Part shown: positions 12,276-22,747 of the stretch, piece by piece
Position numbering within the stretch: the first letter of the stretch is position 1
Layout of the letters: each line of letters opens with the position of its first letter
NCBI RefSeq assembly: GCF_002005165.1
Contig: NZ_CP019699.1
Span: forward strand, 806,001-870,000
Reading direction: 5' to 3'
Source of the DNA: Novibacillus thermophilus
Lineage (GTDB): Bacteria; Bacillota; Bacilli; Thermoactinomycetales; Novibacillaceae
DNA: 64,000 nt
Notes under the pieces: generated by a model
Databases searched by the model: none
Told to the model about the DNA's origin: nothing
Seen by the model: the letters and a program-made list of their open reading frames with translations, nothing else
Made by a program: the position numbers and the translations under genes

Positions 12276-12305
12276 ATTGAAGACGCTGTTGATGGAGTGA
12301 CGGAG

Positions 12306-13604
12306 ATGGGGAAGCGATTATGGGCATTGGTCAAGAAGGAGTTTATTCAACTCAAGCGCGATCGCAGAACGTTGGCCATGTTGATCATATTGCCGGTGCT
12401 GTGGCTCGTCGCATTTGGATATGCTGTTAACTTTGACATTGAAGAACTGCGGGTCGCATGGATCGATGAGGCCGATAATGAGTCAAGCAGGAAGTTGTGG
12501 GATCACTTACAGAAAAACGAACATTTTCAATTGATAGGGACCAATTGGTCGCGCAACCTGGCGAAGGAAGCGATGGAAGACGGAGAAATCGATGCAGCTG
12601 TCATCATACCAAAAAACTATGAATGGCTGTCTGCCAAAAGTAAACCCCTTGTTTGGGTGGACGGAAGCGAACTGTTTTCCTCCCAATCATTCGTCCGCTA
12701 TTTTCAAGAGGCATGGGGAGATGTCCAGCAAGATCACTTTGAGGCGGTTAAATCAGATGTGCGGGAAACCATGACTGAGACTGGTGGAAGTATGGAGGTT
12801 GATGTTGGTCAACTTCCTCAGTTTCAAGAGTTGACCCGTGAAATTCCTGCTGAACAGTTGCCCCATTTTCACGAAAGTTTAAAAAGAGGGTTACAAGAAC
12901 AGATACAGGATAACCTGGACAATCGGATAGAACAGGTGATGGAGATCTTCCCCAACATGTCCGAGGTGCAGCCGGAAGTGGACATTTTGTACAATCCCGA
13001 CATGAAGACGGTCCACTTCATGATCCCGGGACTGGTCGGTCTCGTGCTCATTTTCATTACGACGCTCATGACAGCTTTAGGCATCGTGAAGGAAAAGGAA
13101 CGCGGAACGCTGGAACAACTTGCGGTATCACCGCTGTCATCGTTTGAACTGATGCTCGGTAAAGTGTTACCGTACGTATTGATTGCCCTTGTCGACTTTT
13201 TGGTGGTGTTTGCCATCGGGGTCTGGTGGTTCGATGTCCCGTTCAAAGGAGACGTCCTTCCGTTTTTTGCTGTGTCACTTGCTTTCCTCGTCTGCAGTTT
13301 AGGGATTGGACTGCTCGTGTCGACCGTTTCAGAAACACAACAACAAGCAATGCAGCTGGCCATCTTTACACTTGTGCCACAGTTTATTCTCTCCGGTTTT
13401 GTATTTCCCCTGGAGGCCATCCCGTGGGGGATACGCTGGATCTCTTATTTAATGCCGCTCACGTATTACGTGCCCATAAGCCGCGGCGTTTTCTTAAAAG
13501 GGACGGAAATGGCGGCGTTCGTACAGCCAGCACTCATTCTAACCGGATTAGCTGTATTCGTCATACTGATCGCCAGTTTAAGATTTCGCCGGAAGTTGGG
13601 GTGA
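12306..13604 (+). CDS. ABC-2 type transporter permease (YbhS/YhhJ-like)
   Basis: A 432-residue membrane subunit of an ABC exporter. One N-terminal helix (LAMLIILPVLWLVAFGYAV) is followed by a ~200-residue extracytoplasmic domain and five C-terminal helices, the layout of the YhhJ/YbhS class. The ATG at 12306 is preferred to the in-frame GTG at 12297 because GGAGTG lies correctly upstream. It heads an operon of permease, two ATPases and TetR. Homologous systems usually have two permeases and an HlyD-type adaptor, neither of which is present. Drug or lipid export is an inference. Confidence 0.9.
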   Translation: MGKRLWALVKKEFIQLKRDRRTLAMLIILPVLWLVAFGYAVNFDIEELRVAWIDEADNESSRKLWDHLQKNEHFQLIGTNWSRNLAKEAMEDGEIDAAVIIPKNYEWLSAKSKPLVWVDGSELFSSQSFVRYFQEAWGDVQQDHFEAVKSDVRETMTETGGSMEVDVGQLPQFQELTREIPAEQLPHFHESLKRGLQEQIQDNLDNRIEQVMEIFPNMSEVQPEVDILYNPDMKTVHFMIPGLVGLVLIFITTLMTALGIVKEKERGTLEQLAVSPLSSFELMLGKVLPYVLIALVDFLVVFAIGVWWFDVPFKGDVLPFFAVSLAFLVCSLGIGLLVSTVSETQQQAMQLAIFTLVPQFILSGFVFPLEAIPWGIRWISYLMPLTYYVPISRGVFLKGTEMAAFVQPALILTGLAVFVILIASLRFRRKLG

Positions 13605-13611
13605 GAAGGGG

Positions 13612-14535
13612 ATGACGTTACTCTATGTTGAAGCATTAAGTGTCCAGTACGAGCGTGAACGCGCGTTGTCGGACGTGTCTTTTGATTTAGATCGGGGAAC
13701 CGTCCTTGGCGTAGTGGGTGCAGATGGAGCGGGAAAGACGAGTTTGCTTCGCTCCGTTGTCGGTTTGTTGAAGCCGTCTGCCGGTCGTGTGCACCTAAAT
13801 CCCGGCACTCGACTCGGTTATGTACCGCAGCAGTTTAGTTTATACGGCGAAATGAGTCTTGAAGAAAACATGTCGTTTTTCGGAACATTGAACGGGTTGA
13901 GTAGAGGGACCCTTAAAAAGCGCATAGATGAACTACTCGAATTTACGGGTCTTGCCCCCTTTCGCAACCACTTGGCTGAAGATTTGTCAGGTGGAATGAA
14001 GCAAAAGTTGAGTCTGGCAGTCTCCCTGCTGCACTGGCCGGAGTTTGTTGTTTTTGATGAACTGACGAACGGGGTCGATCCCGTTTCCCGGCGGGAGTTG
14101 TGGGAGTTAATCGGGAAAGTGCGACAGGACGGGGTAGCGGTTCTCGTTTCCACCCAGTATTTGGACGAAGCGGAACGGTGTGACCGTGTACTTTTGTTGC
14201 ACGAAGGTGAGAAGATTCGGTACGGCAGCCCAAAGGAGCTCCGCTGTACATTTCCTTACACATTGTGGGCGCTGCCGGACAGCGGTAAACGGCGAATGGA
14301 ACTTGAGCTTTTGACTGAACGCCCCGGGATTGTGAATGTGTATGCCCGAGGAAATGATACGGTGTTAGCTGTCGATGACGAACAAAAGGCTCAAGAATCG
14401 TTGGAGAAGTGGAAATGTCAAGCGGAGTACCGAGGCGTCGTAGAGGAGCGTAAACCGTCGATGGAGGATGTCTTTATCGCACTCGTGGAAAAAGGGGAGG
14501 GTACTCGGGATGATTCATCTGCATCACATTCGTAA
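13612..14535 (+). CDS. ABC transporter ATP-binding protein (first ATPase)
   Basis: A 307-residue ATPase, 8 bp after the permease. Walker A reads GADGAGKTS at residues 36-44. The signature LSGGMKQ is near residue 126. Walker B reads FVVFDELTNGVDP, where the usual Pro after Glu is Leu. The ~85-residue C-terminal extension is typical of drug-export ATPases. It overlaps the second ATPase by 26 bp, so the two are translationally coupled. The pair may replace the fused two-domain ATPase YbhF. Confidence 0.92.
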   Translation: MTLLYVEALSVQYERERALSDVSFDLDRGTVLGVVGADGAGKTSLLRSVVGLLKPSAGRVHLNPGTRLGYVPQQFSLYGEMSLEENMSFFGTLNGLSRGTLKKRIDELLEFTGLAPFRNHLAEDLSGGMKQKLSLAVSLLHWPEFVVFDELTNGVDPVSRRELWELIGKVRQDGVAVLVSTQYLDEAERCDRVLLLHEGEKIRYGSPKELRCTFPYTLWALPDSGKRRMELELLTERPGIVNVYARGNDTVLAVDDEQKAQESLEKWKCQAEYRGVVEERKPSMEDVFIALVEKGEGTRDDSSASHS

Positions 14536-15235
14536 ACAGTTTGGACACTTCACCGCTGTCGACGATGTCACCCTTTCTATCGAAAAGGGAACCGTTTACG
14601 GCTTGCTGGGAGCGAACGGAGCAGGAAAAACGACGTTAATAAAAATTATGTGCGGCTTACTGGATCCTACATCGGGAACAGGAACGATTTTCGGACATGA
14701 TCTCGTGAGAGAGCGAAACCGAATCAAGCAGTCCATTGGCTACATGTCACAAAAGTTTTCTTTGTACCAGGACCTTACCGTAAGTGAAAATATCGCGTTT
14801 TACGCTCGCCTATACGGAATCGAAAAGCCCGAAACTCGAGCGCGGGAGTTATCGGAACAATTCGACGTTTACACTTTTAAGGATAAAGTGGTATACTCTC
14901 TGAGCAGTGGCGTGCGTCAACGAGTGGCCTTTGCATGTGCCCTCGTCCACGCTCCGAAGTTGCTGTTTTTGGACGAGCCGACGAGTGGCGTCGACCCTTT
15001 AGCCCGCCGAAAAGTGTGGAAGTGGTTGTACCGTCTCGCCGCAGACGGGATGTCGATTGTCGTGACGACGCACTATATGGACGAAGCGGAACATTGTGAC
15101 CGGATCGCCTTGATGAATGCGGGGCGAATTGTGGCCGAAGGGACGCTCGACACATTGCGGAAGGGGCTTCCCGTCCAGTTACATTCATTAGAAGATATCT
15201 TCGTACACGTGATGCGAGAGGACGTGAACCGATAG
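14510..15235 (+). CDS. ABC transporter ATP-binding protein (second ATPase)
   Basis: A 241-residue ATPase. Walker A is GANGAGKTT (34-42). The signature is LSSGVRQR, with Ser for the usual second Gly. Walker B is LLFLDEPTSGVDP. The ATG at 14510 has GGGGAGGG upstream inside the previous gene; a longer frame from 14468 lacks a ribosome site. Together with the first ATPase it probably forms a heterodimer that drives the single permease type. Confidence 0.92.
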   Translation: MIHLHHIRKQFGHFTAVDDVTLSIEKGTVYGLLGANGAGKTTLIKIMCGLLDPTSGTGTIFGHDLVRERNRIKQSIGYMSQKFSLYQDLTVSENIAFYARLYGIEKPETRARELSEQFDVYTFKDKVVYSLSSGVRQRVAFACALVHAPKLLFLDEPTSGVDPLARRKVWKWLYRLAADGMSIVVTTHYMDEAEHCDRIALMNAGRIVAEGTLDTLRKGLPVQLHSLEDIFVHVMREDVNR

Positions 15236-15921
15236 TGGACCAACGCGATCAAAAAAAACAACGAATTGACCAACTATTTGACGACATCCTTAAGCCACAC
15301 AACCAAATGACGGAGAAACAGCGCCGCATTTTGGAAGTGAGTCTTGAAATGTTTGCAGAGAAAGGCTATAATGGGGTTTCGACAAATGAAATTGCCCAAA
15401 GAGCTAATGTGGCGGAAGCGACTATTTTTAAACATTTCAAGACGAAAAAAGGGCTATTTCTTAATATTGTGGTACCTGCTCTGGCAAAAGCTGCTACACC
15501 AGCCATTAAGCAAACGTTGAAGGAGATCGTAAACAGCGAAAAACCGTTAAATGAACTGTTGAAAGCATTAATCCACGACAGGGTACAACTTTTCGACGAC
15601 AATTGGCCGCTCGTGAAAGTTATCGTACGGGAGTCCCAGTATCATCCAGAAATATGGCAGGCCATCAACTATTATGTGGCGAATAAAGTGTATAAAATTA
15701 TTGAGGAAGTCGTTAAATCGAAGCAAGAGACCGGCCAGCTGCGCCGGGACATCCCGGCTTATGTGATTGTTCGGACTGTTATTTCCAACGTATTAGGTTA
15801 TGTGATGCTCAAACACTTCATCCCCGATGTCATGCAGCGTGAGCATGAAGAAACAGAAATCGGGATGGTGGTCGACGTTTTACTAAACGGGATAACGTCC
15901 AATGCGAATGGGCGCCCGTAG
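15235..15921 (+). CDS. TetR/AcrR family repressor of the ABC operon
   Basis: A 228-residue regulator whose N-terminal helix-turn-helix reads VSTNEIAQRANVAEATIFKHFKTK (residues ~45-68). It is preceded by a ~23-residue extra N-terminal segment; an ATG at 15307 would remove it. The GTG overlaps the previous TAG stop (TAGTG), so it belongs to the exporter operon. It probably represses that operon through the twin palindromes at 12198-12275. Its last three codons and stop lie inside the tRNA-Arg sequence. Confidence 0.88.
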   Translation: MDQRDQKKQRIDQLFDDILKPHNQMTEKQRRILEVSLEMFAEKGYNGVSTNEIAQRANVAEATIFKHFKTKKGLFLNIVVPALAKAATPAIKQTLKEIVNSEKPLNELLKALIHDRVQLFDDNWPLVKVIVRESQYHPEIWQAINYYVANKVYKIIEEVVKSKQETGQLRRDIPAYVIVRTVISNVLGYVMLKHFIPDVMQREHEETEIGMVVDVLLNGITSNANGRP

Positions 15922-15987
15922 CTCAGGGGATAGAGCACCAGACTTCGAATCTGGGTGTCGTAGGTTCGAATCCTACCGGGCGCGCCA
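15912..15987 (+). tRNA. tRNA-Arg (anticodon TCG), CCA encoded
   Basis: The acceptor stem GCGCCCG (15912-15918) pairs with CGGGCGC (15977-15983). The D-arm (GCTC...GAGC), the anticodon stem CCAGA/TCTGG with loop CTTCGAA, and the T-arm TAGG TTCGAAT CCTA are all intact. The discriminator G and an encoded CCA end the gene. Its 5' 10 nt overlap the 3' end of the TetR gene, and no separate promoter is evident. Confidence 0.96.
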
Positions 15988-16018
15988 CGATAAAGCCTAT
16001 AAAATCAACTGTTAGGGT

Positions 16019-16049
16019 GCTTTTCCAAAAAGAGGAAAAGCGCTTTTTT
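16019..16049 (+). terminator. Terminator after tRNA-Arg
   Basis: GCTTTTCC and GGAAAAGC form an 8-bp stem around AAAAAGA, followed by GC and six T's. It probably ends the whole ABC-TetR-tRNA transcript. Confidence 0.8.
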
Positions 16050-16096
16050 ATAGAGCCTCCATGTGTTTAGGTGCAAGTTTGGCTAATTTTGTAACG

Positions 16097-16112
16097 TTTT
16101 TTTTTTTTTTTT
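16097..16112 (+). repeat. 16-base T homopolymer
   Basis: An uninterrupted run of 16 T's, the longest homopolymer seen in the window, in a non-coding stretch. Given the homopolymer errors elsewhere, its true length is uncertain. Confidence 0.9.
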
Positions 16113-16440
16113 AACTTTTTTCACTTGAGCCATATATATCGGCAGTTTACACGTTAACCAATAGAACGATCATTCCCCGTCCGTTAAATGGTATGTAAGC
16201 TTTGTTGTAGCCACCTTTTCTTGATACTCATTCATCCGCTGTACCGAATCATGTTTAAAATCATTGTGACTGGGGTTGAAATCCAACGAAACAATTTGAC
16301 AGGAGATTGAACCTTTACACCTTCCAATGTCGATAGAAAACGTGAAAAAAGGTGACCGCGTGTTGGTGCGGGTGCTATAAGAATTTGATCCAAAAAAACA
16401 AATCTGCTTGCAAATCACGCGGTGCAGTAAGATTTGAAGT
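16113..16440. other. Non-coding stretch with degraded coding traces
   Basis: No intact gene is visible. A plus-strand frame near 16303-16378 (MSIENVKKGDRVLVRVL, then stop, then FDPKKQICLQITRC) reads like worn coding sequence with one internal stop, but I cannot name its family. The open minus-strand frame across it has no credible composition or ribosome site. Confidence 0.45.
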
Positions 16441-16625
16441 GGAAAAAATACAATTATTTGTTTCGAAAAGGGGAGAAATACTTTCGTGTATCTCCGTTGG
16501 ATATACAAAAAGCGTCTGATTGGTTTCAAAAGTATGGAACCTGGAGTGTTTTCATGTGGATCTTTGATCTGGAATACCCTGTTAGTTTGTGCAGGTGCTT
16601 ACGTTGGGGAATCCTGATGGTGATC
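16440..16625 (+). pseudogene. DedA-family membrane protein remnant
   Basis: One frame encodes FRKGEKYFRVSPLDIQKASDW then FQKYGTWSVF, matching the middle of DedA-type proteins. The next recognisable part, GSLIWNTLLVCAGAYVGES, is in the +1 frame starting near 16557. The ~40-60 residues normally between them (the RFIPGxR and PAG segment) are absent. The N- and C-terminal parts are also missing. This is therefore an internally deleted, frameshifted remnant and not a simple one-base error. The family assignment is from memory of DedA motifs. Confidence 0.6.
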
Positions 16626-16744
16626 GTCATATCGGAGTTGATCAATCAGTTTCTTGGATGAGGATCAATGGGAGACCGTGTTCCGCACGAAGGTTCAAGA
16701 TGTGCCCTTGTTTTTTGCAGTAAAATACAAAAAAGTTAAAAAAC

Positions 16745-16797
16745 TTGACAGACAAGAGGTGTAAAAAGTATATTACATATGTAATATACTTTTTACA
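16745..16797 (+). promoter_or_regulatory. Promoter overlapped by a 38-bp perfect palindrome
   Basis: TTGACA (16745-16750) and TATATT (16769-16774), 18 bp apart, form a sigma-A promoter. From 16760 to 16797 the sequence is a perfect palindrome: the half-site TGTAAAAAGTATATTACAT is followed by its exact reverse complement. The -10 lies inside it. It is 24 bp before the TTG start of an Xre-type regulator, the likely autorepressor. The RNA could also fold into a long hairpin. Confidence 0.75.
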
Positions 16798-16820
16798 TTT
16801 TCATGCGCGGAGGGAAGAGT

Positions 16821-17057
16821 TTGAAAACAAGAAAAGGGACTTTGCGCAACAACTTACACGTGTTAAGGGCTGAAAGGAAATGGACGCAGAAGTATGTCGC
16901 AGAACAACTTGGCGTGACGAGGCAGACGGTGCACGCCCTTGAAGCCAACAAATACAATCCGTCGCTCATATTAGCGTTTGAAATTTCTCAACTATACGGG
17001 AAAAAAATCGAAGACATTTTTACTTATGAAAAGAAAGGAGGGAACGAGAAACGATGA
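16821..17057 (+). CDS. Small Xre-type helix-turn-helix regulator
   Basis: A 78-residue DNA-binding protein, almost entirely one helix-turn-helix: RAERKWTQKYVAEQLGVTRQ then TVHALEANKYNPSL, ending in KIEDIFTYE. This is the YozG/putative-repressor type that regulates its own small operon. The TTG at 16821 is chosen because GGAGGG lies 7 bases upstream; an in-frame ATG at 16803 overlaps no ribosome site. Its stop overlaps the ATG of the next membrane protein (ATGA). Confidence 0.88.
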   Translation: MKTRKGTLRNNLHVLRAERKWTQKYVAEQLGVTRQTVHALEANKYNPSLILAFEISQLYGKKIEDIFTYEKKGGNEKR

Positions 17058-17338
17058 TCATCCTTTATATTGTTTTCACACTCATTGGCGTGAGCAGTAT
17101 CGGAGTGTATATCGGGTTCTCAACGACTGAAGGCAAGGATGAGAGGGGCAGCGCCATTCTTGCCAAAGCCGCTCAAATTGCTTTCGTTTTTATTTTTCTG
17201 GGCTTTGCCTTCCATCTATTATACTTTGAGTTCTCCAATCCATCGGTAGAAAACATTAAAGCGACGATGACAGTGTGGATGAGTTTAGTTTTTGCGAGTT
17301 ATGCCCTAGGAATTCTGATTTATCGCAGAAACATGTGA
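17054..17338 (+). CDS. Small membrane protein paired with the Xre regulator
   Basis: A 94-residue protein with three hydrophobic segments (about residues 2-20, 35-58 and 70-88) and a short C-terminal RRNM. AAAGGAGGG precedes the ATG, and a 4-bp overlap couples it to the Xre gene. Such Xre/DUF2178-like pairs are widespread in Firmicutes. The membrane partner has no known function; I do not assign it to a numbered family with certainty. Confidence 0.8.
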   Translation: MIILYIVFTLIGVSSIGVYIGFSTTEGKDERGSAILAKAAQIAFVFIFLGFAFHLLYFEFSNPSVENIKATMTVWMSLVFASYALGILIYRRNM

Positions 17339-17530
17339 CTGATGGCGATTATGATGTCAATGATTTTAGAAAGTCGCAAATGGTTGAGCTTCTTGGATTC
17401 AATAATGGTATCTCTAATTCCGAACGTTTTGTTGGGTGACGGGTAGGCACATCAACTGTCCGACAAGAGCTCAAAATGACAGGCAAATTGTCAAGCTGGC
17501 TGGTAACATCGTTGTAAAGGAGTGATCCGT

Positions 17531-18391
17531 ATGTCATTAGTAAAATCATTACAAAAAGCGATTGAATACATGGAAGACCATCTGTTAGACGACATCACCA
17601 TCAAAGATATTGCCAAACAAGCACATCTGTCTCCTCATCATTTTCAACGCACTTTTGTCATTCTGACGGATGTCACTGTTGCAGAATACTTGAGGAGGCG
17701 CCGCCTGACTAAAGCAGCTCAAGAGTTATTGAACAGCGATACAAAAGTCATTGACCTTGCCTATAAATATGGATATCAAACACCTGAATCCTTTGCCAAA
17801 GCCTTCTACAGGCAACACGGGCTGACGCCCAGCGAAGCGCGTAGAAGAATGGGAAGCTTGCAATCGTATAACCGCCTGACGATACAAGTGAATTTGAAAG
17901 GAGCCGAACCGATGCATTATCGTCTGATAGAACGAGATGCCTTCCAGATCGTAGGGGTGAAGAAGTCGTTTGAATGTAACGAAAAATTCGATCAGACTAA
18001 AGAGATCAGTCGTTTTTGGGCTCAGATTGGCCAGGACGGCACCATTGACCGATTGTTAGGCTTGAACGATGGCCAGATAAAGGGTTTAATTGGGGCGACA
18101 GTGGATTATGACGAAAGGGGCAATGAGATTGAGTATTGGATAGGCACTGAATTCAAAGGGAATACACCTGATGGATTCGACAGGTACGAAGTATCTTCCG
18201 TAAAATGGGCGGTTTTTGAAGCTGTGGGACCTGTAACCGTTGTGGTTCCGGAGACATGGAAAAAAATATATTCAGAGTGGTTTCCGTCCAACGATTATGC
18301 ACATAGCAGTGCACCGTCCCTGGAAGTATATCAAAGCCCTGACCCGTCCAGCCCCACAGCCAAAACTGAAATCTGGGTCCCGGTCAAATAG
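17531..18391 (+). CDS. AraC-family regulator with GyrI-like effector domain
   Basis: A 286-residue protein. The N-terminal ~105 residues hold two helix-turn-helix units (ITIKDIAKQAHLSPHHFQRTF; VIDLAYKYGYQTPESFAKAF) ending with HGLTPSEARR. Residues ~130-286 form a GyrI/SOUL-like ligand-binding domain (YRLIERDAFQIVGVKKSFE...). This order is found in Rob- and YtdP-type stress activators that sense small hydrophobic drugs. The ATG at 17531 has AAAGGAG 9 bases upstream. No target gene is obvious beside it. Confidence 0.9.
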   Translation: MSLVKSLQKAIEYMEDHLLDDITIKDIAKQAHLSPHHFQRTFVILTDVTVAEYLRRRRLTKAAQELLNSDTKVIDLAYKYGYQTPESFAKAFYRQHGLTPSEARRRMGSLQSYNRLTIQVNLKGAEPMHYRLIERDAFQIVGVKKSFECNEKFDQTKEISRFWAQIGQDGTIDRLLGLNDGQIKGLIGATVDYDERGNEIEYWIGTEFKGNTPDGFDRYEVSSVKWAVFEAVGPVTVVVPETWKKIYSEWFPSNDYAHSSAPSLEVYQSPDPSSPTAKTEIWVPVK

Positions 18392-18996: not shown

Positions 18997-19357
18997 ATTT
19001 GTTTAAGGTATTATAGAAAATTCACGCTATCTTTCGATAGTTCTGTTAAACCTGACCGTCAACTCTGGTCATTTGATTTTTAAAATACGGTGTTTTAAGA
19101 TAGCAGTAATATTAAATGGGTGGAGCTGTTCTATTCACGATGATGACAGTGTTCTTGACAGTTATTCGGCAATAACAAATCGAATCACAATGTTACTTGA
19201 AAAAACCTTGATAGATGGGATGCATTTGTCGTGGAAATTCAAGTGTCAACCGACAATGAACCATAAGCTTAGCATGAGGTCGTGATGGATCCTGACACGG
19301 TTCATGCACGGCTTTTTTGTGTTTTCTAAACGGGGTTCAAAAATCGGAGGCGTTAGT
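18997..19357. other. Intergenic stretch, no supported gene
   Basis: A 70-codon plus-strand frame (19073-19285) has no ribosome site and unusual composition, and I recognise nothing in it. Just before the methyltransferase start the frame is open further upstream, but only the GTG at 19358 has a ribosome site. Confidence 0.55.
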
Positions 19358-20374
19358 GTGACACTTTATTTTGCGAGCGTACTGCCTGGATTAGAAGACG
19401 TTTTGTCAGATGAAATAAACCACAAACTGATTGATTCTGAAGTCATTCAAATAAACAGAGGGAAGGTTTTCTTTACCGCTGCTGAGTCCTTTACCTGCTT
19501 CAATTCTTTAAGGTCTGCAGATAACTTGTTTCAAGTCCTTGATCAATTTCAAATTGGTCCACACAAAAAGCATTTGTCACAGGTCCGGGAACGCATATCT
19601 CAATTGGATTTAGGTTTTATGGGCCGTAAAGATGCATTTTGGGTCAATGCGAGCCGTAAAGGAAAACAAACCTACAGTCGTTTTGAAGTCGCCAAAGAAG
19701 CAATAGAGGGGATACATAAGCGTTACCCTGATTGGAAGATCGGAACGTCTCGAAATCATCAGATAGAATTCAGAATCGACGTTGAACACCATCACGTGAT
19801 TTTTTCACTTCGGTTGACAAAGGCTACGTTTCGCTTCCGCAATCAGAGGCGACGGTTCTCTCCTGCGTCCTTACGCCCTCCTGTCGCTCACGCAATGGTG
19901 TGGCTGTCAGAACCCGCATCGACAGATGTTTTTGTAGATCCTTGTTGTGGGTCAGGAACCATTTTGTCTGAACGAGGTGCGTACCCTGCCGATGAGATAG
20001 TAGGTGGAGATATATCTGACGAAATCACGAAGATAGCCAAAAGTAATCTCGACGGTTTGGAAGTGGTAGTGCATGTGTGGGATGCGCGGAAATTGCCTTT
20101 TTCAGACGGTTGTGTCGATAAAGTTGTTACGAATCTTCCGTTTGGGAGACAAATTTCTCCCGATGGGGATTTACAGTTGTTTAATCACCAAATGATGCAT
20201 GAAATCTGGAGAGTCCTGAAGCCGAACGGGAGAGCCGTTATTTTGTCTGACAGTGCCAATCAATTGTTTTGGGAAGCAGAGCGGTTAGATCTTTACTGTC
20301 TGAAATCTTATCTGTTGAGTTTGAAGGGTTTGAATCCTACCTTGTTTGTGTTTGAAAAACAAGGAAGAACATAG
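19358..20374 (+). CDS. Class I SAM-dependent RNA methyltransferase (THUMP/TrmN-like)
   Basis: A 338-residue methyltransferase. The N-terminal ~150 residues (LYFASVLPGLEDVLSDEI...) match the ferredoxin-like/THUMP region of RNA N2-guanine methyltransferases. The Rossmann part has the SAM loop DPCCGSGTIL near residue 190 and the catalytic NLPFGRQ near 263 in place of the usual NPPY/NPPFG. The GTG at 19358 has GGAGG 7 bases upstream. A modified guanosine in tRNA or rRNA is the likely product; the site is unknown. Confidence 0.85.
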   Translation: MTLYFASVLPGLEDVLSDEINHKLIDSEVIQINRGKVFFTAAESFTCFNSLRSADNLFQVLDQFQIGPHKKHLSQVRERISQLDLGFMGRKDAFWVNASRKGKQTYSRFEVAKEAIEGIHKRYPDWKIGTSRNHQIEFRIDVEHHHVIFSLRLTKATFRFRNQRRRFSPASLRPPVAHAMVWLSEPASTDVFVDPCCGSGTILSERGAYPADEIVGGDISDEITKIAKSNLDGLEVVVHVWDARKLPFSDGCVDKVVTNLPFGRQISPDGDLQLFNHQMMHEIWRVLKPNGRAVILSDSANQLFWEAERLDLYCLKSYLLSLKGLNPTLFVFEKQGRT

Positions 20375-22691: not shown

Positions 22692-22747
22692 TTGACAATA
22701 AAAAATAAAGCGTATATGCTAAATTTAGTCGATTGTCGACAATCGAC
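22692..22747 (+). promoter_or_regulatory. Sigma-A promoter and GntR operator
   Basis: TTGACA (22692-22697) and TATGCT (22715-22720) are 17 bp apart. A perfect 20-bp palindrome, GTCGATTGTCGACAATCGAC, occupies 22728-22747, around the expected transcription start. Its ATTGTCGACAAT core looks like operators of FadR-type GntR proteins. It should control gntR and the downstream catabolic operon. Confidence 0.8.

Follow-up and report, generated by a model that had tools for sequence, protein, structure and literature searches.

A perfect 38-bp palindrome before an Xre/membrane-protein gene pair in Novibacillus thermophilus, a probable two-operator array for a CylR2-like regulator

Introduction

In the genome of Novibacillus thermophilus a perfect 38-bp palindrome precedes two small overlapping genes, coding for an Xre-type regulator and a membrane protein. 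This raises the question of what so long a symmetry is for, as a dimer does not need it to be perfect overall. An earlier note on this DNA had suggested two overlapping dimer sites for the Xre protein, a hairpin at the 5' end of the message, or both, and had regarded its spotless conservation as a sign of active selection. We have analyzed the palindrome within a 64,000-nucleotide stretch of contig NZ_CP019699.1 (positions 806,001 to 870,000), referred to here as the window and numbered from its first base, and have compared it with the regions upstream of related regulators and with 398 genomes of the class Bacilli.

Results

The palindrome and its two operators

The palindrome occupies positions 16760-16797, with two 19-nt arms (16760-16778 and 16779-16797) that are 100% complementary and have no spacer between them. 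The 19 + 19 bp symmetry is thus as first described, although position 16745, which had been given as its start, is the first base of a predicted -35 hexamer. It is the longest perfect palindrome in the window, whereas the longest found in 40 dinucleotide shuffles of the window is 20 bp, and in 2000 shuffles of the region 16700-16820 it is 18 bp. The runner-up in the window, GTCGATTGTCGACAATCGAC at 22728-22747, is 20 bp long, a length also attained in the shuffles. The earlier note had asked for a search for further copies, and with up to three mismatches the 38-bp sequence is present at a single place in the 3,629,225-bp genome. The exact 36-bp core has no match in viral contigs, no DNA similarity of 16700-17400 to plasmids was found, and Rfam reports nothing at gathering score in 15900-17500 except a tRNA. 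Between this tRNA gene (15912-15984) and the palindrome, the region 16016-16740 contains no recognized gene, and its open reading frame at 16434-16661 has no Pfam match.

The palindrome consists of two putative operators, O1 (16760-16777, with the core GTAA-N8-TTAC at 16761-16776) and O2 (16780-16797, core 16781-16796), both of the form TGTAA-N8-TTACA and neither assigned to a strand. O2 is the exact reverse complement of O1, their centers are 20 bp apart, and the 2 bp between the 18-mers are TA, which is why the entire 38 bp is perfectly palindromic. The pattern TGTAA-N8-TTACA occurs twice in the window, both times within the palindrome, against an expectation of 0.07. There are three occurrences in the genome, two of them at the palindrome, and five of the reversed control, so the genome-wide count by itself is not above chance. 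The third, at 1501-1518 of locus L007 (genome coordinates 2518016-2518033), lies about 160 nt before an open reading frame for a 405-residue membrane-protein-like product, and could be a second target or a chance match. A search of the genome for a second 20-bp tandem array at two mismatches gave one further match, equal to the control count of one.

The predicted promoter overlaps this array. A -35 hexamer TTGACA (16745-16750) and a -10 hexamer TATATT (16769-16774), both on the plus strand and separated by 18 nt, match 11 of 12 consensus bases, and the -10 falls in the right half of O1 and thus in the left arm of the palindrome, as had been proposed. Promoter-like sites are no commoner in 16000-17560 than in shuffles (3 observed, 3.4 in shuffles), and the promoter therefore stays a prediction. 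Transcription generally starts about 7 nt downstream of the -10, which places the predicted start at 16781-16782 on the plus strand, beneath O2. A Shine-Dalgarno-like GGAGGG (16809-16814, plus strand) ends 6 nt before the TTG codon at 16821. The operators overlap the predicted promoter of the xre gene itself.

The Xre protein and its membrane partner

The xre gene (16821-17057, plus strand, stop included) has a TTG start and codes for a protein of 78 residues with an HTH_3 match (Pfam, 5.3e-13). Its structure model (pLDDT 89.7) has a strand, five helices, and a second strand, and of the proteins with solved structures DR_2454 (9k3w) and CylR2 (1utx, 2xiu) come closest to it, both by sequence and by model fold. 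By its sequence, modeled fold, and flanking strands, it is a CylR2-like small regulator. In PHROGs it lies near phage repressors (1.4e-12), as the fold would predict. Homologues at E ≤ 1e-17 are present in 31 of the 398 genomes, and the relatives on plasmids (16 of 72,556) are all below 60% identity.

The second gene (17054-17338, plus strand) overlaps the xre stop codon (ATGA) and codes for a predicted membrane protein of 94 residues with three long predicted helices (model pLDDT 95.8). Pfam and NCBIfam yield no family above cut-off for it, and PADLOC and PHROGs no match. A search of the PDB with its fold gave a best E of 0.76, which is meaningless, and the partner profile matches no PDB chain. 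Weak matches to DUF2178 and DUF6442 (best E 0.0021 and 0.005) are confined to one and two, respectively, of 28 aligned partners, with none for the 94-residue protein itself. Residues D29, E30, and R31 are invariant in these 28 partners and form part of an EGKDERG stretch that separates helix 1 from helix 2. By profile comparison the three-helix family matches a four-helix family of about 155 residues (probability 86.9, E 4.1e-6). The six open reading frames scanned with Pfam are those of the Xre protein, the membrane protein, and TetR, AraC/GyrI-like, and SnoaL-like products, and one without a match.

The two genes are paired in other genomes too. Among 72 genes lying next after Xre homologues, 62, largely related to each other, code for at least two predicted helices, and 61 of these have the DER motif; it is present in two of the ten others, and for five homologues a next open reading frame was not found. 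Among other open reading frames of the same loci with at least two helices, five of 70 contain DER, and at least two of those five (in L013 and L060) look like partners missed by the next-gene rule. A search with the partner profile alone found 44 places in 43 of the 398 genomes. Of 29 such loci fetched besides the window, 28 have an Xre homologue (27 within 150 nt and one at 151) and 22 have tandem operators; the Xre and partner searches are not independent, because many loci are common to both. In L148 a partner-family gene is present and the Xre homologue is absent from the fetched locus. A partner gene at 1055-1258 of L064, with a second copy in genome G378, contains an in-frame TGA and reads as 68 residues. 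On a Priestia plasmid the partner has the DER motif, and on Deinococcus and Sphingomonas plasmids the neighboring small membrane protein is without it.

The operator code in homologues

To define the operator we chose homologues of the Xre protein by protein search alone (E ≤ 1e-17, with the window excluded and identical ones merged), giving 39 upstream regions, and scored as a tandem array any two GTAA-N8-TTAC sites that lay at a distance of 20 or 21 bp and had no more than two mismatches in sixteen bases. Arrays are present in 25 of the 39 regions and in none of 100 shuffles, and the operator code thus recurs upstream of Xre homologues above chance. At this threshold 14 regions have no tandem array; several of them have a single site and some have none, and for one, L016, an array whose second site is imperfect lies farther upstream. 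A scan of spacer lengths found GTAA-N8-TTAC in 22 of the 39 regions and none of the other lengths between 0 and 16 in more than one, whereas the distance between operators varies (TTAC-N4-GTAA in two and N5 in eight). The fixed spacer and variable distance indicate that GTAA-N8-TTAC is the site of a single dimer.

Tandem sites recur at preferred distances. In the 105 upstream regions of both selections, which include weak homologues and were scored with at most two mismatches together, sites are 21 bp apart in 58 pairs, 5 and 16 bp in 11 pairs each, 42 bp in 10, and 20 bp in six. Three sites are present in L012, L014, and L109 among others, and four in L013. Before the second Xre gene of L019 two operators abut, with a 16-bp period, and a different DER protein gene follows. 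Upstream of the Xre homologues found beyond Bacilli, on Deinococcus and Sphingomonas plasmids, there is no GTAA-N8-TTAC. In the Sphingomonas plasmid locus L151 two TGTCA-N8-TGACA-like repeats, noted by eye, lie 40 bp apart upstream of position 1201, and this suggests a shifted operator code.

We also scanned the 398 genomes with the pattern GTAA-N8-TTAC-N4/5-GTAA-N8-TTAC alone, and found it at 46 places in 40 genomes, compared to three genomes for the reversed pattern. The pattern was derived from relatives, and the source genomes (G000, G032, G033, G034, and G036) belong to the 40; the 30 loci fetched (L060-L089) all come from other genomes. An Xre homologue starts close to the array in 27 of the 30, although two related genera contribute many of the 27, and these cannot be counted as independent. 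The other three arrays (L060, L061, and L066) have no adjoining homologue; in L060 an open reading frame for a membrane protein with the DER motif lies about 220 nt from the array. The spacer register, the recurrence in homologues, and the pattern-only scan agree on the GTAA-N8-TTAC unit, and in substance the two-dimer proposal of the earlier note holds: there are two putative dimer sites over the predicted -10, but the sites are adjacent, not overlapping.

Promoter geometry of the arrays

The position of the operators relative to the predicted promoter also recurs. A promoter-like match is present in 49 of the 53 distinct arrays of the pooled selections, many of which come from related species, and this likeness is partly built in, because TTAC itself supplies several of the matching bases. 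Not built in are the A that follows O1 in 40 of 48 arrays and the AAT that follows O2 in 18 of 48. In 39 of the 53 arrays successive operators have the two promoter hexamers as their right ends, the first a -35 that reads TTTACA or varies on it, the next a -10 that reads TACAAT in 20 cases. The 21-bp period corresponds exactly to the usual 17-bp promoter spacer. Four more arrays, including that in the window, have the -10 in O1 and TTGACA upstream.

The latter layout is that of a smaller, 20-bp class, composed of the window, L014, L015, L018, and, by eye, L016, in which TTGACA lies upstream of O1, the right half of O1 contains the -10, and the start is covered by O2. L014, L015, L016, and L018 are among the window's five closest aligned Xre relatives (64-75% identity); the fifth, L017, at 65% identity, has the 21-bp form. 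The distant homologue in L062 has a 20-bp period too, with a weak promoter match. In the 20-bp and 21-bp classes alike, two dimers would lie on one face of the DNA, about two helical turns from each other, and cover what the polymerase needs, and repression would thus be the most likely result.

Discussion

With O1 on the predicted -10 and O2 on the predicted start, autorepression by two dimers is the best reading of this locus, and we consider it very probable that the palindrome is a two-operator array at which the Xre protein would bind and repress its own gene. Each 18-bp half would be the site for one dimer of the CylR2-like protein encoded downstream. The two dimers would lie on the same face of the DNA, 20 bp or about two helical turns apart, and may bind cooperatively. 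A dimer over the -10 and another over the start would then deny RNA polymerase access to the promoter of the xre and membrane-protein genes. A signal at the membrane or from outside the cell probably leads the membrane partner to lift or modulate this repression, perhaps through the conserved DER segment, paralleling the supposed role of CylR1 for CylR2.

How the two operators came to be exact reverse complements is a separate question. The earlier note wrote of spotless conservation and of active selection, and neither is borne out. No close relative of the species carrying the locus was found; the sole other genome of the family searched has only distant Xre homologues (E 7e-13 and 1e-11), and in L014 (two pairs), L015, and L018 the symmetry of the arrays extends to 12-14 of 18 positions. 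This imperfection in three orthologues leaves selection for perfect symmetry unproven. Neighboring operators also have no general dyad bias, the dyad comparison being closer in 24 of 61 pairs, further in 22, and equal in 15. A match of 8/8 in the variable part, as in the window, occurs in three of the 61 pairs (the window, L107, and L063), whereas operators from different loci paired at random match in this way with a frequency of 0.0055 per pair, so that exact dyads are mildly overrepresented without a general rule. The L063 array, at 1501-1537 and beside another Xre homologue, is symmetric about a central base (GTAACATATAAATTACATAATGTAATTTATATGTTAC). Correction of quasi-palindromes by template switching is a known mutation process, and the symmetry is explicable by such correction, by chance, or by selection for equal sites. 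We lean towards its being unselected, produced by template-switch correction or by chance between operators of the same code: the arrays of L014, L015, and L018 are already largely symmetric, and a frequency of 0.0055 per pair should yield a few exact dyads in a large family. The three observed against about 0.3 expected from cross-pairing do indicate a possible pressure or mechanism towards symmetry. An unselected origin is in any case compatible with two-operator autorepression.

Could the palindrome act instead, or as well, as an RNA hairpin, whether a 5' stabilizer, an attenuator, or a read-through terminator? A 38-nt RNA of the full palindrome folds at -18.1 kcal/mol (z -7.6), TTTT follows directly on the plus strand (16798-16801), on the minus strand the hairpin is picked up by a terminator scan (two sites in the region, 1.3 expected), and the arrays of L015 and L014 retain imperfect hairpins of -6.6 kcal/mol each (z -2.8 and -2.4). 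However, a transcript from the predicted start at about 16781 would omit the left arm and contain only the right one, with a 4-bp stem, and the complete hairpin has only three G-C pairs. The orthologous arrays of L014, L015, L016, and L018 fold poorly (-6.6, -6.6, -5.1, and -4.4 kcal/mol); weak hairpins are expected of palindromic operators as such, and relatives retain the operator code without a general dyad between operators. The predicted start and the poor folding of the orthologues leave the 5' hairpin unsupported, and we regard an RNA role as highly unlikely. Least probable of all is that the center, TTACATATGTAA, is the site of an unrelated regulator and the outer parts are incidental. 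It is a perfect 12-bp palindrome, and resembles BlaI/MecI operators, which contain TACA..TGTA, but the distance across this center varies among the homologues while GTAA-N8-TTAC is fixed in 22 of 39, and 27 of the 30 arrays recovered by pattern alone adjoin Xre homologues.

Two further readings retain binding by the Xre protein and differ in what it is for. In an activation-then-repression switch, as in restriction-modification controllers, whichever site is occupied first would recruit RNA polymerase and the second would shut the promoter. C.Esp1396I provides a known case of small Xre-type dimers on two adjacent quasi-symmetric operators (PMC4041747), and some relatives of the window have three or four sites. 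Unlike in the C systems, however, O1 lies on the predicted -10 and O2 on the start, so that no site is placed for recruitment, and a promoter this near to consensus should not need an activator; a switch of this kind is therefore unlikely. Even less likely is a type II toxin-antitoxin pair, with an Xre antitoxin binding its own promoter and a small membrane toxin. Gene order and gene sizes are compatible with it, and the Xre protein has a weak similarity to antitoxins of the Y4mF/HipB type (30.1 bits, where the cut-off is 71.65), with HipB chains in the PDB at 22-23 bits and the putative antitoxin 3omt at Foldseek rank 7. But every NCBIfam match is far under its cut-off, the partner has neither a family above cut-off in Pfam or NCBIfam nor a match in PADLOC or PHROGs, and the structures that come closest, DR_2454 and CylR2, carry regulator annotations. 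Neither protein of the pair matches a toxin or antitoxin family above cut-off in Pfam, NCBIfam, or PADLOC.

Autorepression from two operators remains our preferred reading. Taken by itself, the palindrome is an operator of an ordinary type, but the family to which the gene pair belongs has been little studied, and the promoter geometry of the operator pair is worth noting. The larger theme is that Xre pairs in part of the class have in common their operator code, their geometry, and the kind of membrane partner. To our knowledge, CylR1/CylR2 is the studied pair of this sort. A more speculative proposal, which we offer tentatively and think doubtful as a whole, is that CylR2-like Xre proteins and DER membrane proteins form a large unrecognized class of signaling pairs acting directly from membrane to DNA, without a phosphorelay; DER would dock the Xre protein, and the operator spacing would let two dimers mask the -35 and -10 in the 21-bp form, or the -10 and start in the 20-bp form seen in the window. 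A gene pair of this kind, with its clean two-site operator, transferred into a laboratory Bacillus would make the action of membrane proteins on such regulators testable outside a pathogen.

Comparison with known systems

The closest solved relative of the Xre protein is DR_2454 of Deinococcus radiodurans (9k3w, PbsX family; 61.4 bits by sequence, E 5.1e-07 by fold), under whose name the one paper listed is unrelated. Among the literature matches listed, no title or abstract start concerns this operator code or the Xre/DER pair.

C.Esp1396I is likewise a small Xre-type protein, described as binding as a tetramer to two dimer sites, OL and OR, in a quasi-symmetric 35 bp (PMC4041747, PMC4321490). 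The two sites of the C systems have opposite effects, recruitment of polymerase at the distal OL and blocking at the proximal OR (PMC4321490), whereas the operator code in the window differs and its sites lie on the -10 and the start. The controller-protein structural match ranks below CylR2, with C.BclI at rank 19. No restriction or methylase domain is present among the six open reading frames scanned; outside that scan lie ABC-transporter genes (12297-15235) and a methylase-like open reading frame (19304-20374), of RNA type by eye.

The nearest studied pair is CylR1/CylR2. CylR2 of Enterococcus faecalis is a homologue of the Xre protein with the same size and fold (1utx; 47.8 bits by single sequence and 79.9 with a profile; TM 0.94 by target length), and common to both systems is an Xre gene paired with a gene for a predicted three-helix membrane protein. 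CylR1 is described as a suspected membrane protein with three predicted helices that is needed for induction (PMC3709268); CylR2 represses, and the connection between the two is presented in these accounts as not understood (PMC3709268, PMC12304293). The toxin operon and the pair of regulator genes are transcribed there from overlapping promoters, PL and PR, whereas the two genes in the window form one small operon with a tandem operator, and no lantibiotic genes are among the six neighboring open reading frames scanned with Pfam. Genes similar to CylR1/CylR2 are reported in a Bacillus thuringiensis lantibiotic cluster, in an account that describes the spread of the system in other gene clusters as unexplored (PMC11343131). 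In the likeness of its regulator and in its three-helix partner the pair in the window resembles CylR1/CylR2, and by analogy it probably works as that pair and C.Esp1396I do.
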